From the NCBI GenBank assembly GCA_024663395.1, contig JANFAH010000010.1:1550001-1614000 (forward strand): DNA of 64,000 bases. The letters are read 5' to 3'. The notes under the pieces were generated by a model. That model saw only the letters and a list, made by a program, of their open reading frames with translations, made no database searches and was not told the origin of the DNA. Position 1 is the first letter of the stretch, and each line of letters begins with the position of its first letter. Shown piece by piece: positions 4,808 to 45,660 of the stretch. The stretch comes from Pisolithus tinctorius (taxonomy: Eukaryota; Basidiomycota; Agaricomycetes; Boletales; Pisolithaceae). The translations under genes were made by a program, and so were the position numbers.

Positions 4808-5884
4808 ATGGGTAATGATGGAGGCAGCATCCCTGACAGGCGCGACCTTGTAAAGAACAAGCCAAAAGCCGAACAAGCCGACAAGGCGAATCAGATTCGC
4901 GCGCTTTGGTTCTTCTGCGCCCTTTCAAAGGTTCGTTTTCGGTCTTCTATCGCTGCAGTATGCTGACAGAACCCTATACAGCGGGCTCTTCAGGAGCCAG
5001 TCGTCTCTTGTGCTCTTGGGAAACTCTATAACAAAGACGCCCTTATCGAGTACCTACTGGACAAGTCGGCCTATGGAGACGGAGAAGAGATATGCGGACA
5101 TATCCGCTCGCTAAAGGTGCGCAGTCTAGCGTGCTCTACGCGCTCCACAGCTCGTGTGCTAATGAAATGACGACAGGATGTGAAAACGTTGAAACTAACT
5201 CCGAGATCTCCTCCACCCTCCCCAGGTTCTGATGTCGCTAAATTTGTCTGCCCACTTAATCTGAAAGAGATGAATGGTGCCTACCCTTTTGTGTACATCC
5301 ACACCTGTGGGTGCGTGTTCTCCCAATCCGGTCTTAGGACGGTCATTGGATCCACTCCAACCTCGAAATCTCTATCCAACGACGAGGACTCTGGGGTCGT
5401 CAACGAGCAACTCGACGTCTGTCCGCAGTGCGCTACCAAGTTCTCAAGGACCACGGACGTTATCACTGTCAATCCTTCCAAAGAAGAGGAGGAGCGCATG
5501 CAGACCGTGATGGAACTCCGGCGTTCTCGGGAACCTGTAAAGCCGAAATCTAAGAAGCGCAAGGCCAATGCCGATGGTGCTGTCGAAGACAAGTCGGCCG
5601 TCGCCAAGAAAATGAAAGAGTCTACAAATAATAGTCACTCCCCCTCACCAGCACCTGTCATCAACCCTGCCGTTACTGCTGGATCCAAGGCACTTGCTAG
5701 CTCGCTCCTCGCAGAGGAGGCTAAGCGAAAAGCTGGTATGAGCGATGCAGTGAAGTCGCTTTATCGTTCCAAATTCGATAAACCCAAGAAGGAAACATTC
5801 ACTACGATGGGCACGTTTACGAGAGTAAGTCCTTGACTGATTTCCTCAACTTCACCGATCTAATGTTCATCGCAGTACGCATAA
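4808..5884 (+). CDS. rtf2: Rtf2-like replication termination factor, copy 1
   Basis: Member of the Rtf2 (DUF602) family. Known members contain a modified RING domain and act at replication fork barriers and stalled forks in the nucleus. Exons 4808-4930, 4982-5116, 5177-5824 and 5876-5884 join without frame loss to a 304-residue protein. It starts MGNDGGSIPDRRDLVKNK, as expected for the family. The RING-like part follows with conserved Cys/His: SCALGKLYNKDALIEYLL (exon 2), FVCPLNLKEMNG, then HTCGCVFS and a distal CPQC pair (exon 3). The C-terminus is basic (KPKSKKRKA). The last exon adds only Tyr-Ala-stop. A second, nearly identical intact gene lies at 44584-45660; the exon-3 parts differ at only about five residues. 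Confidence 0.92.
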
Positions 5885-14949: not shown

Positions 14950-16203
14950 ATGAGAACTCAAGCTCAATCTCAAAGAGAGGTCGCTGAGAACCTCACTGTA
15001 GTGCTAGCTAATCTGTGTCGACTCCCTTCCATCATTGAACAATTCCAATCTTTCTTCGCTCGATGCCACTCTCGCACTGAAGGCGAAAGCACTTCACAAG
15101 CTGGTCGCTCTGACCTCCACCCATCAGCCTTCCATACTCTGCCTCCTTGTAACCGAGATGATGGACCCAACCCTGACCCTGATTATCCTGATGGTGATCC
15201 TGATGGCAGGAGCAGTGGTGATGGGGATATCCCTGAAGACCTGGCTGAGCTGCCAGAGGATCCCCTTGTAGCTCCTGCTAGAGCTGTGCATGCGCTTGTG
15301 CAGTCTAGTTCACACACTGGGGACTCTGCTCCAAAAACCAAAGTCCATGAGCCTGACACTTTCAATGGCTCCGACCCTAAGAAACTCCACAAGTTCCTCG
15401 TACAATGTGAGTTGAACTTCCAAGACTGCCCACATGCATTCTGCTCTGACAGAGCCAAGGTCACCTTCGCTCAGTCTTATCTCAAGGGTATGGCTCTGGC
15501 TTGGTTCAAGCCAGACCTGCTAAACCCCGACAATTATGACTGTCTGCTCTGGATGGATGACTATCATGAGTTCTTACAAGAACTCACAACTAATTTCAGT
15601 CTGCATGATGCCATAGTGGATGCCATCCAACAACTCAAGAACCTCACCATGAAGGATGGTTCTCAAATTATGGAGTTTGATTGCTGGGCTTCACAAGTCA
15701 AGGACTATGGTGTTGGTGCACTCTGCCACCACTTCTATAGCAGACTTCCAGACCACATCAAAGACAAGATCACTCGAGTTGGAAAGCCTTCTACCCTCAC
15801 ACAGCTCTGTGAACTTGCTCAAACCATCAATGTGCATTACTGGGAGCACAAAGCAGAGATCTTGTGCACCACCAAGTCCACCTCTGACAAGTCACAGTCT
15901 TCCAACTCCAACAGTAAAACTAAATCATCCTCCTCCTCTGCTCCAAAGTCTGATGCCAAGGGCAAGGGCAAACAGAAAGATCTGCCCAAGTCCGATATTG
16001 CCCATCTTCTGGGCAAGGATGGCAAACTCACCTCTGCTGAATGCCAGTGCAGGATGAAGAACAACCTCTGCCTCTTCTGTGGCGAGGCTGGCCACTCTGC
16101 CAAGGACTGTCCCAGGTCCACCTCCCATGCAGCCAAAGCCTGTGCAGCTATGGCTGGAACTCCACCTCCTCTGCCTGTGGAGAAGGCAGAGCCAAAAAAT
16201 TAG
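14950..16203 (+). CDS. chromovirus 1 Gag (capsid and zinc knuckle)
   Basis: The longest open frame in the element (417 codons, ATG at 14950, TAG at 16201-16203). The middle part has the retrotransposon-gag signature: PDTFNGSDPKKLHKFL then LKGMALAWFKPDLL and FLQELTTNFSLHD. The C-terminus has a CCHC zinc knuckle, CLFCGEAGHSAKDC (about 16069-16110), preceded by a Ser/Lys-rich linker. Unlike pol this frame has no stop, and its 5' 250 bp keep several CG sites. Structural protein of the virus-like particle. Confidence 0.9.
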   Translation: MRTQAQSQREVAENLTVVLANLCRLPSIIEQFQSFFARCHSRTEGESTSQAGRSDLHPSAFHTLPPCNRDDGPNPDPDYPDGDPDGRSSGDGDIPEDLAELPEDPLVAPARAVHALVQSSSHTGDSAPKTKVHEPDTFNGSDPKKLHKFLVQCELNFQDCPHAFCSDRAKVTFAQSYLKGMALAWFKPDLLNPDNYDCLLWMDDYHEFLQELTTNFSLHDAIVDAIQQLKNLTMKDGSQIMEFDCWASQVKDYGVGALCHHFYSRLPDHIKDKITRVGKPSTLTQLCELAQTINVHYWEHKAEILCTTKSTSDKSQSSNSNSKTKSSSSSAPKSDAKGKGKQKDLPKSDIAHLLGKDGKLTSAECQCRMKNNLCLFCGEAGHSAKDCPRSTSHAAKACAAMAGTPPPLPVEKAEPKN

Positions 16204-16261
16204 TCCATTCCTCCAGGGAGCTCACACAGCCTGGAGGAAGCGTTGATCCCAACTGTGCACA

Positions 16262-19200
16262 ACCAGACATCTGACTCAATGCATCTGCTCTTTCTAGTCC
16301 CAATTCTTTACTTCCATCTGTAACTCTTCTTGACTATTCTGTTAATACTGTTTCTGCATTGGTCAATTCTGGCTCTTCTCATTGTTTCATAGACCCATCT
16401 ATAATCAAAAAATATGCCATTCCTGTTTCCTCCATTTCTCTGCCAATTCTGCTCCACTTGTTTGATGGTAGTACAAATGCTGTCATTTCCCAAGAAGTAG
16501 ATCTTTCCCCCCACTTTCCTTCTGGTGATGTCAATTCCATTTCATTTTATGTTACTCTGTTGGATTCTTCATGTTCACTGGTATTAGGACACAACTGGCT
16601 CACCCACTTCAATCCATTGATTGACTGGGTACTGGGCAGTATATTGTTCAAACCATTGTTACAGGGAATGCTGACACCCCAGGTGCCTTTGTCATCTTCT
16701 GCTGCGACCTCTGCTCCGGATCTGACACCCTCCGCTCTGTCTGCAGCTCCAACAGACTTGCCATGCTCCACTCCACTTGTCTCACTCATCAATGCTGCTG
16801 CATATGTCAGAGCCTGTGCTCTCCCTGGCTCTAGACAGTTCTGCTTACAGCTCTCTGCTGATGATGTGAAGCTTCGTGCATCCTCTGCCTCTTCTCCACC
16901 TCCTGACCTCTCTTTGGTTCCTCCTGAGTATCATGAGTTTGCTGATGTCTTTAGTAAAGACAAGGCCACAGAACTTCCACCCCACCCATTCGATCTCAAG
17001 ATCAATCTCGAGGAAGGAGCTTCTCCACCCATTGGTACAATCTACTCTCTTTCTCTGCCAGAGCTTGAGGCTCTCCACACCTTCATTGATGAGCATCTTG
17101 GCTATGGTTTCATCAAACAGTCCACCTCTGCTCACAGTGCCCCTGTCCTCTTCGTAAAGAAGAAGGATGGTTCACTCCACCTCTGCATAGACTATCAAGG
17201 ACTCAACAAAATCATGAAAAAAGACCACTATCCACTGCTGCTCATCTCTGACCTACTCAACTCTCCAAGCCATGCTAAAGTCTACACCAAGATCGACCTC
17301 TGCCATGCCTATCATCTGGTCTGCATTGCAGACAGAGATGAATGGACAACAGCATTCTGCACTTGTTATGGTTCTTATGAGTGGCAGGTAATGCCATTCA
17401 GTCTGACTAATGTGCCTGTGGCCTTCCAGTGATTTGTTAATAGCATCTTTGCAGACATGCTCAGTGTCTGCATCATGGTATACCTCAATGACATCTTAAT
17501 TTATTTGCAGGATGTGGAGTTGCACCATGAACATGTAAAAGAGGTACTCCACCACCTTTGAAAGCATGGTCTTTATGCCAAGCCAGAGAAGTGCAAGTTT
17601 CACTCTGACTCTGTCAAGTACCTTGGTTATGTTCTTTCTCCCTCCAGTCTCACCATGTCTGCTGAGAAGGTTCAGGCAGTCCATGACTGGCCTGAGCTGC
17701 AGAAGGTGCGAGACATCCAGTCTTTCCTTGGTTTCACAAATTTCTACAGATGATTCATTAATAACTACTCCAACATTGTCGTTCCACTCACTTGCCTCAC
17801 ACAAAAGGGTGCTCCTTGGAACTTTTCTGAGGAGTGCTGCTCCACTTTCCTCTGCCTGAAGGATGCCTTCAGCTCTGCTCCTGTTCTCACTCATTGGGTT
17901 CCTGATGCTCCGCTTACAGTTGAAACTGATGCCTCCAACTATGCCATTTCTGGTATTTTGTCGATCACCTGCACTGATGGTGAACTCTGCCCAGTCACTT
18001 TCTACTCTTGCACCATGACTGCACCAGAACTTAACTATGATACCCATGACAAGGAGCTGTTGGCTATCTTTGAGGCTTTCTGCCATTGGTGGCATTACCT
18101 AGAAGGTTCCACCTTACCTGTTGACATGGTGATGGACCACAAAAACCTTGAGTATTTCTCCACCTCTAAGGTCCTCACTCATTGACAGGCCCACTGGTTG
18201 GAGTACCTTTCACAGTTCAATCTTTCCATCTGCTTCTGACCTGGCTGCTTAGGAGCCAAACCTGATGCACTTACACAATGTTGGGACATCTACCCAAAAG
18301 GGGGGGATAGGGACTACATGCAGGTAAATCCTCACAATCTCCACCCTATGTTTACACAGGAGCAACTCACATCATCCCTCCATACCACCACCCTCATGGC
18401 ACCTGTGCTCCATGCTGCCATGGTCTTTGATGTTGAGTGCTTGCACTCTGACATCATCTCTGCCCTACCCTCTGACCCTGTCTCCACTAGCCATCTTCCA
18501 ACTCCAACTAAGCCTCGGTGGTCCCTGGACCCCAACAGTCTACTCCACCTTGACAGTCATATCTTTGTCCCTGACATTGATGACCTCTGCCTTTGAGTGC
18601 TTTGATTCAAGCATGATCATCCTCTAGCAGGCCATTTTGGGCAAAACTGCACCCTAGAACTTGTCTGCAGGGACTATGTGTGGCCTAACCTCCACTCCGA
18701 CATGAAAGAATATGTCAGGTCTTGCACTGCCTGTGGATGGAGCAAAACTCTGCACCACTGCCCTTATGGTCTGTTGAAGCAACTCCCTGTCCCAGAGAGA
18801 CCTTGGAGCTCCATCTCCATGGACTTCATTGAACACCTCCCCACTCCAATGGCTACTCCACCATCCTTGTGGTAGTGGACTGCCTCTCAAAACAGGTGGT
18901 GTTCATCCCCACCCATGACTCTGTCACCTCTGCTGAACTCGCTAAGCTCTTCCTAACCCATGTCTTCTCCAAGCACAGAGTCCCAGCTAATGTCACCTCT
19001 GACAGAGGTCCTGAGTTTGTCTCACACTTCTTCTGCTCTCTAGGAAAGGCCCTTGATATGCATCTTCACTTCACTTCAGGTTACCACCCAGAAGGTGATG
19101 GCCAGACCAAGCAAATGAACCAGACTCTCGAGCAGTACCTTTGTGTCTACTGTAACTACCAACAAGACAATTGGGCTGAGCTGTTACCTCTAGTGGAGTT

Positions 19201-19903
19201 TGCTTTCAACAATGCACCAAGTGTGACTACTGGAGTCTCTCCCTTCTTCACTAACAAGGGATACCATCCAAACTTGTCTGTGGTCCCTGACCAAGACTTC
19301 ACCTCTCTGAGGGCTCATGACTATGTCGTCGAGCTCTCTGCCCTCCATGACTTCCTCTGCTCCAAAATGTCTGCCACTCAGCAGCGCTACCAGAGTCCAG
19401 CAGATGCTAAACACATACCTCCACCTGAGTTCAAGGTTGGAGAACAGGCCTATGTCAAAGCCAAGTACTTCTGCTCCACTTGTCCTTTGGAAAAACTCTC
19501 TGAAAAGTACTTAGGTCCATTCACAATCTTGGCCAGGCCAGGTACACACTCCATCACCCTTAAGCTCCCTGACTCTATGCACTTGGTACATCCAGTCTTC
19601 CATGTCTCACAACTGGAAGCTGCAGTGGCTAACCCTTTCCCAAACCAACAACAACCTCCACCTCCACCAGTGGATGTTGATGGTGACCTTGAGTATGAAG
19701 TATCAGAGATACTCAACTCTAAGGTGGACTGCCATCGCTGCCATTGCCAACTCTTATATCTAGTCCACTGGGCTGGTTACAAGAACACTGACAAAGAAAC
19801 CTCTTGGTTGCTTGCAACTGAGCTAGATCACACTTCCAACATAGTATCTGCTTTCCATGAATGCTATCCACACAAACCTGGCCTGTACCAACCTCCACCA
19901 TAA
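16262..19903 (+). pseudogene. chromovirus 1 Pol (PR-RT-RNaseH-IN-chromodomain), inactivated
   Basis: Domains in order: protease with VNSGSSHCFID at 16359, where the catalytic DSG reads NSG (16365-16367). Reverse transcriptase (17000-17760) with the active site YLND instead of YLDD (Asn at 17487-17489). RNase H (about 17920-18270) with ETDASNYAISG and MDHKNLEYF. Integrase zinc finger (CTACGWSK), core SMDFIEHLP, TSDRGPEF and HPEGDGQTKQMNQ, where the catalytic Glu reads Lys (19109-19111). Chromodomain YEVSEILNSK...LLYLVHWAGY (about 19690-19860). Stops at 17430, 17559 and 17751 replace Arg codons of the family. A one-base frame loss lies near 18846. The chromodomain places it among the chromoviruses. 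Confidence 0.93.
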
Positions 19904-28423: not shown

Positions 28424-31400
28424 TCAAGTGGGTTGTTTCTGGAGAGGGAAGTCTTTGAGGAAGCATTTCTTATATGCAGAGAGTGTATCATCCACATGTT
28501 CTAAGTGTGTTTCTTTCTGCCACAAGTTCTCAGAAGAGGGGTAACCTTTCCATTTGATTAAAAAGGCATGTCCATGACCAGATCTTTTATGGCTGACTAT
28601 TGCCTCAACTTTGTACTCTTCTTCCTCATTGACAAGGTCAGGTGGGGCCAGGAAGTTTGGTCCATGGACATTGTTTTCATGATAGGGCAATAAGAGGGAG
28701 GCATGGAAGATGTTGTGGATCTTCCATCATGTGGGAATTGCAAGGTGATACGTGATTGGAGATAGGACATCAGAGATAATGAAGGGTCCTTCTCTTTTAG
28801 GAGTGAGTTTTCTATTTTTGTGGGAACACTTTAGGTTCTGTGCCTCTAGCCAAACCTTATCACCTTTTTGGAATGGGGTGAAGGGTCATGATGAGCAGTC
28901 CTTCATTGTTTTTCTTGCTAAGTCATGTGCTGCAAGGGCTTCTTCTCTGGCTTTTCTGAGTTCCTTGAGTCTAGACTTGGCAGTGGGAAGGTGGGTGTCC
29001 ATGATCAGGGACAGAAGTGGTTTTGGTTCATAGCCGTACATGAGGTAGAATGGCAATTGATGGGTGATGGAATGAGGGCAGTGGTTATGCACAAATTCTG
29101 CCATAGGTAGATTGTCTACCCATTGAGTAGGGTCATTCTGGCAGAAGATGCAGAGATATGTTTCAACCTCTTGGTTTATGTGTTCCATTTGTCTGTCAGT
29201 TTGAGGGTGATATGCCATTGACAGGGTGAAGGAGTATCCCAGTAGGGAAGCAAGTTCTTTTGCAAATGCTGAGGCAAACTGAGGGCCTTGGTCAGATATG
29301 ATTCTGTCATACAACCCAAAATGGGAGTAGACTTTCTTGAAAAAGAGGGCTGCAATGTTGGCAGCAGAGGTGGTTTTCTTTGTGATGTTAAAATTACCCC
29401 CTTTGTAAGCCCATGGTCTACCATGACCAAGAGGGAATCATAGCCTTTTGAAAGGGGTAAGTTGGTGACAGATCACAGGAGATCTGTTGGAAGGGGCAGG
29501 TCAAGGTTGAGGGGATGGGTGTAAGGGGTGGTGTCATTGGGTGGGTGTTAACTTTATTTTGTTGGCATACAGCACAGCCTTCAATGTATTTTTGGACAAA
29601 GGACACAAGTCCAGGCCACCAAAACTCAGAAGAGACAATTTGTCAGGTTTTCAAGACACCAGGGTGTCCTGTGGAGGGGTGGTCATGGTGGTTGGATACT
29701 ACAGTCTGTTGGAGGGAGGGGTCATCATGGATGTATACCCAGTCCCTGTAGAGTAGTACTCCATTATTGAATTGCCAATCAGAGAGATGGGATTTGAATG
29801 GGAGTGGCATGTTGATGTTTTCTATGGCTCAAAGAGCTGTTTGGACTATGGGGTCCTTCATGGAGGAAGAGGTGACCTTCTGAGTAAGGTTTGTGTTGAT
29901 GAGGTTGACAAACATGGTCTGGGGAAGGAGGGTTACTCCTTTGTTATCCTCATCATCATCAGGGACATGGTCAGGTCATTGGGAAAGTGCATCAGGGGTG
30001 GACAGGTCTTTGCCTGGGACATGTTCAAGTTGCAGATCAAAATCTGCAAGATCAAGGAGCCAATGAACTTGGCAATGGTTTAGGTTCTGGGGTGCTTTGA
30101 AGTAGGTCAAGTTCTTGTGGTCAGTAAAGACCTTGACTGGAAATGAGGATCCATGGAGGTAATGCCTCCAGGTCTTCAACCCTTGAATAACTCCTAGCAG
30201 TTCTCTGTCATAGATGTCATAGTTTTGTTCTGCTGGGTTAGACAATTGGGAGATGAAGGCACAGGGTTGCCACTGGCCATTTGAGTCTTCTTGGAGAATG
30301 CCTCCAGTCGCATATTTGGATGCATCAGTAGTTATTGCAAATGGCCAAGAGGTATCAGGCATTTGGAGGGTCAGTTGAGCCATGAAAATCCTTTTCAGGA
30401 GTTCAAAGGCACTTTGGCATTTCTTCAACCATTCCCAAGTTATAGTTTTCTTGGTAAGGTCAATCAGAGGGTGGGCAATGTCCAAGTAGTAGGGGACAAA
30501 TCTTTGGTAGAAGTTGGCAAATCCTAGGAAGGATTGTACATCTTTTACCTTCTTTGGGACTGGCCATTCTGCAATACCTTGGACCTTGACAGGATCCATG
30601 GCAATGGTGTTTTCCTTGATGATCATCCCAAGGTATTCCACCTCAGTAAGATCAAAGTGGCACTTTTCTAACTTGAGGGGAAGTGATAACTCCCTCATTC
30701 ATTTGAGAACATGGCAGGTCCTTCACTTGTGTTCTTTGTGGTCAGTAGAGAAAATGAGGAGGTCATCCATGTAGATGACCAACCATCCTTTGGTGATCAT
30801 GTCTCTGAAGGAGTCATTCATGAATTGCTGGAAGGCAGCAGGAGAATTGCATAACCTGAAGAACATGACAATTGGTTCAAAGAGGCCTTTGTGCATGATG
30901 AACACAGCCTTCCACTGGTCCCCTTCTTTGATACAGACATTATTATAGCCCAATCTTACATCCATCTTTGTGAAGATAGATGCTCCTTTGAGTTTGTCAA
31001 TGAGGTCTGAGATAAGGGGAAGGGGATATGCATCCTTCACCATATTCTTGTTCAGATATCAGTAATCCTGACATGGACAAAGGGAGCCATCTTTCTTTCC
31101 AACAAAGAAGAATGGGGCAGCTTGAGGGGACTTCAAGGGACAGATTTTGCCTTCTCAAAGGTTTTCTTCAATAAACTTCTCTGCAGACTCTCTTTCAGAG
31201 GGAGAGAGTGGGTAGGCTTTGGCCACCTTGGGGACAAAGTCTTTTACAAGGTTTATGGCATGATCATATGGTCATGATGGAGGTAATACACCATCTGAGG
31301 GTTTTTTGAAAACTGAAGCAAACTCCTTATAATCTTCAGGGAGAATGGCTTTGGGTTTCTTTTTTGCTTCTTCCTGTGGCAATTCAGTGGCAGTGGTGAT

Positions 31401-31982
31401 TTTTCTAAGAAGGCTGTTCTTGGGATTAACCTTCTTTGCTTCTTCAACAAGTTTTCTGAGCAACATCACAAAGTGGGCACATATAGTCTTGTCTTCTGGT
31501 TCTTTGTAATCAATGAACTTGTTGATCCCTTTCTTCTTGACAGGGGACCCCAGGTTCATGGTTGGTTCTTTGACAGCAACAGGGGAGGTGTTGCAGGAGA
31601 GTTCTTTTGATTGATCAGTTTTTTCATCAATGGAGAGGGTTCCCATTCTCCAATCAACAATGGGGTTGTTCTCTTGTAACCAAGGGAGGCCAAGAATGAC
31701 ATTTTCTGATCCACAGTTAATGACTTGGAAAAAGGACTGATGAATGAGTCCTTTGACCTTGAAGTACAGGATGGCAGAAAAAAAAATCTTTCCCTTAGAA
31801 TTCTGGGATCCATCTGTGTTTTTGGCAAGGATGGGTTCAGCAAGTTGTTGGGTGGGGATTCTATGCTTTTGCACAAAACCCCAATTGTTACAAGATATTT
31901 CTGCACCAGAATCAACCAGTGCCATGGTGTTGACAACTTTTCTTGTTCCTTCTGATGTGTAAAGAGAAATGGGGATTTGCAT
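28424..31982 (-). pseudogene. chromovirus 2 Pol (PR-RT-RNaseH-IN-chromodomain), inactivated
   Basis: Protease ALVDSGAEIS is intact (about 31920). Reverse transcriptase keeps [10 protein letters not shown] (about 30760). Connection and RNase H follow (FLGFANFYQRF, TTDASKYATGGIL, FTDHKNLTYF; 30698-29976). The integrase has a zinc-binding end (GCAVCQQNK, about 29560), a core with SDQGPQF (about 29290) and HPQTDRQMEHINQ, where the Glu remains but neighbouring residues changed. The chromodomain (EEYKVEAIVSHKRSGHG...FLIKWKGYPSSENLW, about 28625-28500) is well kept. Several frames are separated by stops and frame losses (for example near 30715, 29975, 29400 and 28880). Less damaged in catalytic residues than chromovirus 1. 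Confidence 0.92.
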
Positions 31983-39321: not shown

Positions 39322-42300
39322 TCACCTCCTCACTCCATCAACAATTTGTTTGCTGAAAATATCTGAGAATGACAGTGTAAATAATGAAAAAATTCCCTTA
39401 CACATGCGATTCTTCATGATGATTTCTATAATTGCTTTACATAGACCATCCATATCACCATTATGTTCATAAAAAACTGCCTTGACAGCTTTTGAAATAG
39501 CAGCCTGCATATTGGAAGTCTTGTACTCCTCCACAGCCAAAGACAAAGCATCTTTCCAAATATGTTGCCCATCCTGCATTACAAAGTAGGCAAGTTCAGC
39601 AACAAGCAAGCATCCTAGGAAAGTGAGTAAACCATGTATAGATGAATGAGAAATCCATACCAATACCATGTTCAGCAATGGACTGGACTGACGTGAGCTT
39701 CCCCAATAAAGTGACATCTTTGGGCAGTGGTAGCACTGGGATGTAAGAATTGACTTCAAATTGTGACTGTGATGACATGTTTGATTTGTATAATGGAAGA
39801 TAGCAGCTCAACACTCACCAGCTAAAATTTCAATGTCCATGTCAGATATATTAACATAACAGACATAGATGGATCATAAATATATCCAGCTGAGATTGTT
39901 GTAAGGCTGCTCACCTCCTGTCAAAGAAGATGTTACACCAAGGAAACCACCAGATAATCAAAATCAGATTATGTATGCAATCAGCCATGCAATTACTTAC
40001 ATCCTTGCACATGAATTGCCACAGGGAAAGCAAAACAGTCAGCAGATATTCAGGGCAACATTGTTCATGACTTACATACTACCAGTCAAGTGGAACAAGA
40101 AGAGTGGAATTGAAGGTGGTCAGGAAGCTTCCATCATTTTCACAAATTCACCTACATGCTACCATAACACCAGCATCAAGATTGCAAGTGAGGCCATTGA
40201 GCTGAAATCCACCTAGACTTGCCATGAAATCACTCACAAGCTGTCAGGCCATTCAGCAAAGATCCAGCTAGACTTGCAATGAAATCACTCACCCCCTGTC
40301 ATGCCACCAACATCAACAGTGCAAGTAAGGCCATTGAGCAGAGATCCAGCCAGACTTGCCATAACATCACTCACATCCTGCCATGCCACCAACATCAACA
40401 GTGCAAGCCAGGCCATTCAGCAGAGATCCAGCTAGACATGCCATGAAATCACTCACATACTGACATGTTGCCAAGCCATTCAGCAGAGATCCAGCCAGAC
40501 TTGCCATGAAATTGCTCACATCCTGTCATGTCACCAACATCAAGATTGCAAGTAAGGTCATTCAGCAGAGATCCACCTAGACTTGACATGAAATCTCTCA
40601 CATCCTGTCATGCCACCAACATCAACAATGCAAATGAGGCCATCAGCAGAGATCCTGCTAGACTCACCAGCAAAACACTAACATACTGTCATGCCACCAA
40701 CATCAATGCAAGTCAGGCCATTCAGCAGAGATGCAGCTAGACCTGCCATGATGTCACTTACATCCTGTCATGCCACCAACATCAATGGTGCAAGTTAGGT
40801 AATTCAGCAGAGACACAGCTGGACTTGCCATGAAATCACTCACATCCTGTCATGCCACCAACATCAACAACACCCACAAGGCCATTGAGCTGAGATCCAA
40901 CTAGACTTGCCATAAAATCACTCACATACTGTCATGCCACCAACATCAACAGCACAAGTGAGGCCATTAAACAGAGATCCAGCAAGACTTGCAATGAAAT
41001 CACTCACTCCCTATCATGCCAACAACATCAACAGTGGAAGTGAGGCCATTCAGAAGAGCTCCACCTAGACTTGCTATGGTATCACTCACCCGCTGTCATA
41101 CCACCAATATCAACAGTGCAAGTCAGGCTATTCAGCAGAGATCCACCTAGGTTTGCCATGAAATCACTCACATACTGTCATACCATCAAGCCATTCAGCA
41201 GAGATCTGGTTAGACTTGCCATTAAATCACTCACCCGCTGTCATGCCACCAACATCAACAGTGCAAGTCAGGCCATGCAACAGAGATCCACCTAGAATTG
41301 CCATATCACTCACATGCTGTCATGCCACCACATCAAGAATGCAATTCAAGCCATTAGCAGAAACCCAGCTGGACTTGCCATGAAATCACTCACATCCTGT
41401 AATGCCACCAACATCAAACAGTGCAATCCAGGCCATTCAGTCAAGATCCACCTAGGCTTGCCATGAAATCACTCACCCCCTATCATGCCACCAACATCAA
41501 TGGTGCACTCAGCAGAGATCCAGCTAGACTTTCCATGAAATCACTCACTCCCTATCATGCCACCAACATCAACAGTGCAAACCAGCCCATTTAGCAAAGA
41601 TCCAGCTAGACACTGCATGAAATCACCTCCTGTCATGCCCCAAAAATCAACAGCAAAAGTGAAGTCATTTAGCTGAGATCCAGCTAGACCTGCCATGAAA
41701 GTACTCACATACTGTCATGTGACCAACATCAACAGTGCAAGTGGGGTCATTAAACAGAGATCCAGCAAGACCTGCCATGATATCACTCACATACTGTCAT
41801 GTCACCAACATCAACAGTGCAAGGCCATTCAGCAGAGATCCAGCTACACTTGACATGAAATCACTCACATACTGTCATGCCACCAAGCCATTCAACATAG
41901 ATCCAGCTAAACTTGCCATGAAAATTACTCACCTCCTGTCATGCCACCAACACCAACAGTTCAATTGAGGCCATTCAGCAAAGATCCAGCTAGACTTGAT
42001 ATGAAATCACTCACATCCTATCATGCCATCAACATCAACAGTGCAAGTGAGGCCATTCAGTAGAAATCCAGCTAGACTTGCCATGAAATCACTCACATCC
42101 TGTAATGCCACCAACATCAACAGTGCAAGTCAGGCCATTCAGAAGAGATCTGCCTGGACTTTCAATGAAATCACTCACCCCCTGTCATGACACCAACATC
42201 AACAGTGCAAGTGAGGCTTCTCAGCAGAGATCCTGCCAGACTTGCCATGAAATCACTCACAAGCTGTCATGCCACCAACATCCACAGTGCAAATGAGGCC

Positions 42301-44204
42301 ACTTAGTAGAGAGCCAGCCAGACTTGCCATGAAATTACTCACATACTGTCATGCCACCAACATCAACAGTGCAAGTGAGGCCATTCAATAGCAATCCACC
42401 TATATTTGCCAAGAAATCACTCACAAGCTGTCATGCCACCAACATCAACAGTGCAAATCAGGTCATTCCACTGAGATCCATCTAGACTTGCCATGAATCA
42501 CTCACCCCCTATCATGCCAACAACATCAGCAGTGATCTAGCTAAAGATGCTATAGAATCACCCACCATCTATCATGCCACCAACACAAAGTGCAAGTGAG
42601 CCCCATTGGTATATCCAGCATGCCCTGGATCACTTACACTCTATTGATAAATGCAAGTGAGCACAGAATAAATGCATTATTAACCCCATATTTTAGAAAA
42701 AGTAGGCCACTCACATCATAATTTGGAAACCAGCTCAGCAGGGCACCTTCAAGCTTTGTTCTATCATCATGAAACCCATGCCTAATATGTGATTGCATTG
42801 TGTGTCTCAATGCCCTTCAGCACATCAGTATCATGCCACCCCACAGTTGTTTGCTTACTTCTCCACAGCATACTCAACACAGAGTGTAATACTTGACTGC
42901 TGTGTAGATATCAGTAACCTTTGTAAGCTTTCCTCATTCAACACATTTGCTGTGCACTGCATCAAAGCATTACAGTCTGCATTGCTTTGGTCCATCTCTG
43001 CCTCCAGAATTTCTAGCAACACTAACTCTGAGTGGTGAAACACACTCACTCTCAAGTGGCAGGTATCCTCTAGGTGGAAACTTGCACTTATTTAACTCAT
43101 GTTTTATGTGTGCAAGCCACTTTTCCAGCAACTTCCTTTCCTTTTTTGCAATCTTTTCCTCTGCTTCTTCTACTTCCAAGCCTTCTTCTTCTTCAAGCTC
43201 TTGAGTGGCATCAAGATTCAAGGCATCCACCTTTGTCAACAACACTATCACAGGAACTAAACAGATTCTCAGTTACATTTCAACTACATTCGACCAAGAG
43301 TATTTACCATGCCCTGTGTCACACTCATTAAAGAATTTCTGCTCAGCAGCAGTTACTGTCCTGCAGTTCTCAGTCATGGGGATGCAGAACCTAGTTTGAT
43401 CAGTTGCCTCAACCTGCAGCTATTCACAGTGTAGTACATACCAGATAGCATGAATACGCTGCTTCACACTGCTTGCAGTTGCACAGTGAACCACAAAGTT
43501 CCTCATGTGGTCAAACTGCTGTGCACTTCCTCCTTCAAACCCACAGGAGTCATGAAAAACAAAACCTGGGTTGCTGCCAAACACCAGCTCATGCTCAATG
43601 TCATGGTAGCCACGCTGAAAGCACTCTGCTTCAATACGAATTTTCATTAGTTAACATGGCCACCTACCATCAAGGTGCCTTGCACTACTACACTCTCCAT
43701 CTGAAAATCATTAGACAGGTATCCCTAACCCTGAAGGACTATACCTTGTTTCCTTTCCCATCAAAAATCTCTGGCTTGTCTGTAGAGTTGCAGACTCTTT
43801 GGAGGATGGTAGTTTTACCAGCATTTGCTCTGCCCATGATCAGAATCCGAAAACTCTTGATGTTTTTCATGTATTTTTGAGCCATCTCAGAACTGAGGCG
43901 ATAAGCAGGTACAGAAGACGTAGTTTCTGTGACTCGGCATTAGACAACTCACATTCACCCAACGCAAAAATAATACCTTGCAGAGTAACTTTAATCTGAG
44001 CAGGAACTGCCTGAGTCGCCACATCACTAGTTTCTGTGTTGCCATATCAAGGGCGTCATATCTCACAGGCAAGAACAATATCATACCTGCTGCCATAGCT
44101 TCAGTTGTAGCATGGGCTAAATCACTTGCACTGCTTTTGTGGGCACAATGGGAATCACCAATGCCGTGCGACTTGAACCACTTTTTGATATGACCGGGGG
44201 CCAT
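39322..44204 (-). CDS. P-loop GTPase with an array of single-codon micro-exons
   Basis: Agaricomycete-type G-domain protein of the HSR1/MMR-like GTPase group; cellular role unknown. Exons by frame: 44087-44204, 43977-44033, 43745-43926, 43442-43614, 43308-43390, 43050-43256, 42859-43012, 42715-42781 (347 codons, ending in phase 0), then the micro-exon array, then 39667-39766 and 39322-39614 (131 codons with stop, starting in phase 0). G motifs: G1 GRANAGKT (about 43840), G3 DSCGF (about 43550), G4 TKVD (about 43235). The predicted product is 514 residues with all micro-exons or 477 without. It is head to head with Rtf2 copy 2. CG content is normal at the 5' end and falls to near zero downstream. 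One intron is only 37 nt (43013-43049). No stop or frame loss was needed to join the whole gene. Confidence 0.82.
39767..42714 (-). repeat. tandem array: 38 introns separated by 37 three-base exons
   Basis: Read on minus, every unit is GT...AG, three bases, GT...AG. Most introns are 79 nt and near-identical; the range is 52-93 nt, and those at the two ends (42651-42714; 39767-40075) are diverged yet still leave exactly three bases. About 27 donors are gtgagt; the others are gtaagt or one-base variants. Triplets (minus strand, lowest plus coordinate): AGT 42648, ATG 42566, GGG 42506, CTT 42425, TAT 42343, CTT 42261, GGG 42179, GAT 42097, GAT 42015, GAG 41933, TAT 41869, TAT 41791, TAT 41709, GAG 41637, GGA 41549, GGG 41477, GAT 41394, CAT 41314, CGG 41235, TAT 41172, CGG 41090, GGA 41008, TAT 40926, GAT 40844, GAT 40762, TAT 40683, GAT 40602, GAT 40520, TAT 40457, GAT 40375, GGG 40293, CTT 40238, CAT 40156, TAT 40076, GAT 40001, GAG 39915, CTG 39819. 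Confidence 0.85.
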
Positions 44205-44583: not shown

Positions 44584-45660
44584 ATGGGTAATGATGGAGG
44601 CAGCATCCCTGACAGGCGCGACCTTGTAAAGAACAAGCCAAAAGCCGAACAAGCCGACAAGGCGAATCAGGTTCGCGCGCTTTGGTTCTTCTGCGCTCTT
44701 TCAAAGGTTCGTTTTCGGTCTTCTATCGCTCCAGTATGCTGACAGAACCCTATACAGCGTGCTCTCCAGGAGCCCGTCGTCTCTTGTGCTCTTGGGAAAC
44801 TCTACAACAAAGACGCCCTTATCGAGTACCTACTGGACAAGTCGGCCTATGGAGACGGAGAAGAGATATGCGGACATATCCGCTCGCTAAAGGTGCGCAG
44901 TCTAGCGTGCTCTACGCGCTCCACAGCTCGTGTGCTAATGAAATGACGACAGGATGTGAAAACGTTGAAACTAACTCCGAGATCTCCTCCACCTTCCCCA
45001 GGTTCTGATGTCGCTAAATTTGTCTGCCCACTTAATCTGAAAGAGATGAATGGTGCCTACCCTTTTGTGTACATCCACACCTGTGGGTGCGTGTTCTCCC
45101 AATCCGGTCTTAGGACGGTCATTGGATCCACTCCAACCTCGAAATCTCTATCCAACGACGAGGACTCTGGGGTCGTCAACGAGCAACTCGACGTCTGTCC
45201 GCAGTGCGCTACCAAGTTCTCAAGGACCACGGACGTTATCACTGTCAATCCTTCCAAAGAAGAGGAGGAGCGTATGCAGGCCGTGATGGAACTCCGGCGC
45301 TCTCGGGAACCTGTAAAGCCGAAATCTAAGAAGCGCAAGGCCAATGCCGAAGGTGCTGTCGAAGACAAGTCGGCCGTCGCCAAGAAAATGAAAGAGTCTA
45401 CAAATAATAGTCACTCGTCCTCACCAGCGCCTGTCATCAACCCTGCCGTTGCTGCTGGATCCAAGGCACTTGCTAGCTCGCTCCTCGCAGAGGAGGCCAA
45501 GCGAAAAGCTGGTATGAGCGATGCAGTAAAGTCGCTTTATCGTTGCAAATTCGATAAACCCAAGAAGGAAACATTCACTACGATGGGCACGTTTACGAGA
45601 GTAAGTCCTTGACTGATTTCCTCAACTTCACCGATCTAATGTTCATCGCAGTACGCATAA
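44584..45660 (+). CDS. rtf2: Rtf2-like replication termination factor, copy 2
   Basis: Same four-exon structure as copy 1, at a constant offset of 39776: exons 44584-44706, 44758-44892, 44953-45600 and 45652-45660, giving 304 residues. All splice sites, the RING-like Cys/His residues (HTCGCVFS, CPQC) and the basic tail are preserved. Differences from copy 1 are few (for example Ile to Val at residue 30, Thr to Ala, Asp to Glu and Ser to Cys in exon 3). Both copies look functional; I see no damage in either. The upstream 150 bp are also duplicated, so both may be expressed. Confidence 0.92.

Follow-up and report, generated by a model that had tools for sequence, protein, structure and literature searches.

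Can part of a protein be encoded by consecutive exons of a single codon each, and how would such a stretch come to vary? These questions are raised by a gene on the minus strand of a 64,000-nucleotide (nt) stretch of DNA from the ectomycorrhizal mushroom Pisolithus tinctorius (contig JANFAH010000010.1, positions 1,550,001 to 1,614,000), which we call the window and to which all window coordinates refer. Between positions 39767 and 42714, 38 GT-AG introns of 52-93 nt alternate with 37 exons of exactly three nucleotides, which encode SMGLYLGDDEYYYEGGDHRYRGYDDYDDYDGLHYDEL. We analyzed this array together with its relatives in the 92.5-Mb assembly of the species (221 contigs). Our results argue strongly that the array is a hypervariable stretch of a GTP-binding protein written one codon per exon; splicing likely joins all of its codons in order, and their diversity likely arises in the DNA through recombination between near-identical introns.

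The arrangement described in the original prediction, which was made from the bare sequence, could be recovered triplet by triplet on the minus strand: all 38 introns run from GT to AG, and none of the 37 triplets is a stop. Triplet chaining places the first single-codon exon (AGT, Ser) at 42638..42640, and the last (CTG, Leu), equivalent to the final L of an NLNEL end found in most family members, lies at 39819..39821. In our hand-made gene model, the exon before the array (42715..42781, ending ..LLSWFPNYD) closes in phase 0, and the exon after it (39667..39766, starting SQFEVNSYIPVLPLPKD) opens in phase 0, again as predicted. Intron lengths of 0, 1, and 2 modulo 3 occur 11, 22, and 5 times, respectively, and retention of any one of 36 of the 38 introns would cause a frameshift or introduce a stop. 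The fixed spacing is beyond chance, since 200 dinucleotide shuffles of the array region yield chains of at most 3 units, compared with 37 in the real sequence. When both strands are searched, the array is the sole chain of at least 6 units in the window, a 9-unit match being the array’s own edge. With the remaining spacers between 0 and 8 nt, chains at this locus reach 1-2 units, except for a 13-unit chain at spacer 7 that arises from the second GT inside GTGAGT. Much of the regularity reflects a diverged 82-nt tandem repeat, which the original prediction recognized in part; the 3-nt spacer nevertheless persists in units of other lengths and between the diverged last introns. Four such terminal introns (39822..40155), interspersed with the exons TAT, GAT, and GAG between the last codons H-Y-D-E-L, are 47-75% identical to their counterparts in the six paralogues compared.

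The window array belongs to a large family. A DNA search returned 42 matches in the P. tinctorius genome, and arrays of AG-NNN-GT were found in 29 of 31 further stretches examined around those matches (L009-L037), with no array in the other two (L038 and L039). Three more arrays with different intron sequences (L042-L044) contain 36, 32, and 48 triplets, and a further pair, L040 and L041, contains 57 and 56 within the part analyzed. Family arrays comprise 9-57 consecutive single-codon exons, with a typical unit of 82 nt, 79 nt of which is intron, and introns that are mostly ~79 nt long and near-identical. Near-identical copies of some loci occur on contigs C17, C40, C44, C115, C38, C117, and C159 (e.g., L009/L010; L030, L031, and L032); they represent haplotypes or duplications of recent date. 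Across the genome, a pattern of three units finds 2253 matches (1078 + 1175), versus 7 (3 + 4) for a reversed control. Extrapolation from 35 arrays (1058 units, 567 pattern starts), a sample picked mainly by likeness to the window gene, gives a rough estimate of ~139 arrays with ~4,200 exons of one codon for the whole assembly, duplicates and haplotype copies counted. Among the pattern matches listed there are seven array places, five of which adjoin (within ~1.2 kb) exons of the same GTPase family.

A period built on a spacer other than 3 nt was considered for the family and rejected. Across 30 loci tested at spacers 0-8, long chains appear at 7, again the second GT in GTGAGT, and the remaining off-spacer chains reach 5 units (spacer 0), 7 units (spacer 5), and 4 units (spacer 8). 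In three loci the spacer-7 chain is longer than the spacer-3 chain under a 130-nt limit (L018, 31 versus 25; L019, 30 versus 24; L024, 23 versus 13), the latter being interrupted at a unit whose donor is GC or AT. One unit of L018-L020 and of L028 carries a GC donor followed by AAGT (GAG/GCAAGT or CTG/GCAAGT, the slash marking the junction) and retains the 3-nt spacing; these arrays apparently contain GC-AG introns.

Are the triplets constrained as codons? No stop occurs in 738 triplets from 23 non-redundant loci, although position-specific base frequencies predict 42.1 (log10 P of -18.8). Because units are mutual copies of one another, this statistic is overstated, and we therefore also counted distinct locus-codon types: 16.5 stops are expected among 290 types and none is observed (P = 4e-8). 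Fixed intron triplets near the splice sites contain only 5 and 3 stops in 738 since these positions are conserved, and all intron 3-mers, which provide a fairer background, contain 4.1% stops (1880/45333). Several choices define these counts. Before the entropy, pair, and stop counts, chained sites ahead of an initial gap of >200 nt were trimmed, with a further cut in L021 and L022 at the first far-end gap of >200 nt. In many loci the trimmed sites held TAA at the end of the upstream exon (AAG TAA GTAAGC), so stops were removed in this step; we place the true donor of that exon inside the triplet (AA/GTAAGC), in which case the TAA would not be an array unit. The sets of 738 and 565 triplets used here exclude units whose donor is GC or broken and units with a spacer of 2 or 4 nt. 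The near-duplicates L010, L016, L019, L020, L022, L026, L031, L032, L034, L036, and L037, none of which contains a stop, were left out, as was L041 (3 TGA in 56 triplets), taken as a decayed sister of L040.

All 20 amino acids are represented in 565 triplets of 19 loci, and the array ends with N-L-N-E-L in 16 of those 19; the Leu codons vary among CTT, CTG, and CTA, and the introns between the NLNEL codons are merely 52-81% identical in the four pairs compared. The third base of the 738 triplets is T in 383, G in 243, A in 112, and C in none. A triplet ending in C before the donor (NNC followed by GT) would create a CpG and a poor donor, and avoidance of C could reflect either constraint.

One alternative is that 42714-39767 is removed whole as one large intron containing a minisatellite, with AG-NNN-GT a by-product of tandem duplication. 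The diverged 82-nt repeat is what such an origin would give, and the deposited models P0006 and P0002 pass from the WFP.. motif directly to the C-terminus without array residues. This account leaves unexplained the absence of stops from 738 triplets, the end codons conserved through synonymous change, and the 3-nt spacer between diverged introns, and it is opposed by the intron-free sequence P0026 (467 aa, from a 1695-nt contig). P0026 and P0006, a protein annotated in P. tinctorius Marx 270, are identical over 347 residues from KLRNSF.. to WFPNTK; P0006 then continues with LSLEVV, whereas P0026 runs on with DLPPYEQPQYQQQEGETREQWYERRYQEEQEQEQQHEQEYQEQQ (44 residues) to its end. The loci closest to P0026 are L040 on contig C109 and L041 on C4, with 85-96% identity among the exon pieces listed. 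The triplets of L040, chained blind by script, read DLPPYEQPQYQQQEGETREQWYERRYQEEQEQEQQHEQEYQEQR.., and 43 of the 44 residues of P0026 are identical and in order; the 44th is Q in P0026, R (CGA) in L040, and Q (CAA) in the sister L041. The 44 triplets cover ~3.5 kb of genomic DNA, far exceeding the 1695-nt contig, which therefore cannot be the gene itself and likely represents a spliced transcript or sequence copied from one. Its source tag, “lgn”, presumably denotes an assembly of public sequencing runs, and the argument does not depend on the tag. By this comparison, the single-codon exons are spliced in the C109 paralogue type. Excision of the array as one intron, already contradicted for that paralogue, is thus extremely improbable.

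Other intron-free sequences carry residues at the same place. P0001 (519 aa, 1703-nt contig) reads WFPNCN..ALNEL-PSFDVDV, including the family LNEL end, and both it and P0018 (555 aa, 1889-nt contig) carry stretches of at least 34 residues there. In P0115, about a dozen residues follow WFPYAD before VSRGVMD.., which resembles an array intron, as in L042, left unspliced, making P0115 a possible splicing intermediate. A near-identical locus for P0001, P0018, or P0115 was sought in this genome and none was found (best pieces, 60-81%), so these sequences probably come from other species. A search with the C-terminal part of P0001 gave three matches, P0001 among them. Among the deposited relatives with the WFP.. 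motif that we saw, 33 of 47 end within 60 residues past it, at the array, so standard annotation fails at arrays systematically.

If the exons are spliced, are they all used? In the original prediction, different subsets of the symmetric exons could be included, so that a single gene would yield a large protein family. Consistent with this idea, all 37 window triplets are in frame and free of stops, so that any subset keeps the frame, and the apparent retained intron of P0115 suggests that partly spliced forms may exist. P0026, however, includes each of the 44 triplets within reach of its contig. Combinatorial splicing consequently appears rather unlikely, and the prediction is not supported on this point. 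We favor constitutive inclusion of the single-codon exons because P0026 skips no codon; as far as seen, the variety lies in the DNA, between genes, rather than in alternative splicing.

That variety is concentrated in the triplets. Within loci, entropy is 1.56, 1.47, and 1.14 bits per base at the three triplet positions, against a mean of ~0.35 (0-0.79) over 50 flanking intron positions. Among 301 same-locus unit pairs with identical flanks of 40 + 40 nt, drawn from seven loci and chiefly from L012 (174) and L009 (87), 219 differ in the triplet. Such pairs show 0, 1, 2, and 3 differing bases in 27, 12, 48, and 13% of cases, compared with 14, 16, 50, and 20% for pairs drawn at random from these loci. 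Even when both complete 79-nt introns are identical, 89 of 135 pairs differ in the triplet, with 121 of the 135 coming from L012.

Identical introns beside different codons could point to targeted hypermutation, a diversity-generating mechanism that alters triplets and spares introns, and the preponderance of changes at two of the three bases (144 of the 301 identical-flank pairs) would suit it. Sister copies do not show such a process in strong form. In ten sister pairs, some of which share a member and several of which are identical, 1 of 759 triplet sites differs versus 13 of 20,905 intron sites, a low-powered comparison from which columns aligning triplet with intron were not counted but which reveals no large triplet excess; L040 and L041 differ at 5 of 165 triplet sites and 75 of 4326 intron sites. 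By these counts mutation is not strongly focused on the triplet; strong site-directed hypermutation is rejected, and we regard any targeted mechanism of this kind as very unlikely.

Identical introns beside unrelated codons would also be expected if copies of one mobile intron (an introner) had repeatedly invaded the coding sequence of an existing peptide, codon by codon. Several features conflict with this origin. Units 4-21 of L009, inspected by eye, look like three successive six-unit blocks with common intron variants in which several codons are exchanged whole, and because of such recurring blocks we reject intron invasion as the entire process. The alignment of L018 with L019 has 82 gap columns, equivalent to one unit (one codon), and 0 substitutions, a case seen in this one pair, so a unit has been lost or gained whole. 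The lack of C at the third base is odd for a pre-existing reading frame. Finally, among nine locus pairs with 90-96% identity across ~1.4 kb upstream, only 0/9 to 6/9 of the alignable inner array residues are common; L012 and L025, for example, are 95.7% identical upstream and have 4 of 12 such residues in common. Intron invasion is therefore a highly improbable source of the arrays; an initial invasion is possible. The simplest account is gain, loss, and exchange of units by recombination in the intron repeats, coupled with selection on the codons, a mode comparable to that demonstrated for the HET WD40 repeats of Podospora (PMC1805685) and described for PRDM9 (PMC3890296). The assertion that simple intron duplication is insufficient thus needs qualifying: the lack of stops and the hypervariable triplets between identical introns uphold it, but whole-unit duplication or loss does occur.

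The host gene can be followed on either side of the array. Reading along the minus strand in our hand-made model, a putative first coding exon with an ATG at 44204 (44087..44204) and a putative second (43977..44033) precede an exon containing the P-loop GRANAGKTT (43745..43926). Upstream coding exons follow at 43664..43700, 43442..43625, 43308..43390, 43050..43256, and 42859..42997, of which 43050..43256 encodes VPVIVLLTKVDA, including TKVD, which we take to be the G4 motif. Past the array and the exon that follows it, a C-terminal coding exon lies at 39404..39614, and the putative last coding exon, with the stop inside, at 39330..39362. The predicted protein begins MAPGHIKKWFKSHG.., and the window gene has a P-loop and a G-domain profile match (Pfam Arf), in agreement with its earlier assignment as a GTPase. 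The whole gene had been expected to close as 347 + 37 + 130 residues; the 37 triplets and the phases stand, but our hand-joined model, whose flanking exons are predicted from sequence, gives 358 residues before the array and ~111 after it. P0003 (“GTP-binding protein [Pisolithus tinctorius]”), which is 96% identical across 56% of the window-gene query, is apparently the deposited protein of this gene; it has 254 residues and terminates before the array. Fold matches lie almost wholly within the G domain. In the predicted structure of P0001, residues 366-394 have predicted local distance difference test (pLDDT) values below 50 and are flanked by more confident domains; this stretch lies nearly all inside the array product (367-400).

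From these observations we infer how the system may operate. The window gene would be spliced like its paralogue, by intron definition, with the short introns removed one after another. Unequal exchange and gene conversion in the 82-nt repeats would add, remove, and swap codons, and such changes would always remain in frame because each unit holds exactly one codon. Selection may conserve the array ends, where 16 of 19 loci encode NLNEL, while diversifying the middle. The array product is predicted to link the G domain to a helical C-terminal domain without being well ordered itself, and it might act as a variable recognition surface, by analogy with the WD repeats of fungal HET proteins.

Several observations weigh against this interpretation. 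Not every copy is intact: L041 (C4:2503050-2508050) contains 3 TGA in 56 triplets; at two of them L040 carries CGA, and at the third CAA beside a CGA. This looks like decay of a sister copy, two of the three changes being those expected from C-to-T mutation at CpG. Other arrays have non-canonical units: the spacer is 2 nt in L020 and 4 nt in L022, L024 has an AT donor instead of GT, L037 has deletions, and L011, L021, and L026 have longer gaps. A protein search with the array and C-terminus of the window gene itself found no RNA-derived sequence of that gene at E ≤ 1e-3 among 121 candidates. The transcript status of P0026 rests on the length of its contig. Some deposited models (e.g., P0002 and P0118, and also P0006) join WFP.. 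to the C-terminus without the array peptide. The sister pairs are weak evidence against moderate triplet hypermutation, with 0.5 changes expected at the intron rate and 1 seen. Low pLDDT in P0001 may reflect nothing more than few alignment rows there, and the model draws short helices in the stretch; the fold matches are confined almost entirely to the G domain.

Elsewhere in the window, two near-identical 218-aa open reading frames (ORFs), presumably Rtf2-like, lie ~39.8 kb apart on the plus strand (5180-5836 and 44956-45612). This pair is probably a segmental duplication, with the second copy starting near the GTPase gene. From their motifs, we take the ORFs at 14950-19903 (plus strand) and 29976-31982 (minus strand) to be gag/pol genes of long terminal repeat (LTR) retrotransposons.

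What would such arrays mean? Runs of up to at least 57 consecutive codon-exons probe how the spliceosome defines adjacent introns with almost nothing between them, and a variable codon in the exon combined with a recombining repeat in the introns would allow insertion, deletion, or swapping of single residues without loss of frame. There is, in our judgment, an even chance that the family constitutes a new diversity system, that is, a mushroom gene superfamily that uses introns as a recombination scaffold to rebuild a receptor-like loop codon by codon in frame, yielding a large repertoire for non-self recognition and requiring the spliceosome to handle dozens of successive 3-nt exons routinely. 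We know of no system in which the variable codon is exonic and the recombining repeat intronic, and the view that none of this form had been described is shared by our literature search, which, outside subscription journals and bioRxiv and within the accessible parts of its sources, found no report of single-codon exon arrays. Introner elements are many near-identical introns scattered over unrelated genes of one genome. The P. tinctorius introns are similarly numerous and near-identical within one genome, but they are arranged in tandem and, as far as seen, confined to one gene family.

The micro-exon genes (MEGs) of Schistosoma have exons of 6-81 bp (3-81 bp in its abstract), mostly 15 bp, separated by introns of 0.1-5 kb, and their products are secreted (PMC10526429). 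On that description, MEGs resemble the P. tinctorius arrays in having many consecutive short exons, mostly multiples of three in length, that are hard to annotate automatically and are linked to protein variation. They differ in that all 37 window array exons are 3 nt, outside the 6-81 bp range, the introns are mostly ~79 nt and near-identical, and the gene encodes a GTPase (PMC10526429). As to the inclusion of the micro-exons, the intron-free family sequences comprise one with full inclusion (P0026) and one with an apparent retained intron (P0115). Isolated exons of 1 or 3 nt are known from APC11 (PMC4674806), plant microexons (PMC8831610), and the 3-bp exon of homothorax (PMC7392893); they show that splicing can handle exons this small, in some cases constitutively. 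Such exons had been recorded as single instances (PMC4674806, PMC8831610), and two adjacent plant microexons measure 5 and 12 nt (PMC8831610); the P. tinctorius arrays, in contrast, have 9-57 in succession.

The closest parallels in mode of evolution are coding minisatellites. The WD40 repeats of HET-D and HET-E in Podospora evolve in concert, with a few hypervariable selected codons and exchange within and between loci (PMC1805685), and the zinc-finger minisatellite of PRDM9, likewise a set of concerted repeats, varies in copy number and also has a few hypervariable selected codons, with a unit of 84 bp (PMC3890296) that compares with 82 nt in P. tinctorius. Like these, the arrays consist of near-identical tandem units within a locus, with hypervariable codons in a conserved unit, and one pair of copies (L018/L019) differs by a whole unit. 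The P. tinctorius unit does not encode a folded protein repeat, as 79 of its 82 nt are intron. In the HET WD40 repeats and PRDM9 the conserved backbone is protein (PMC1805685, PMC3890296), whereas in P. tinctorius the backbone is the spliced-out intron and the variable codon alone is exonic.

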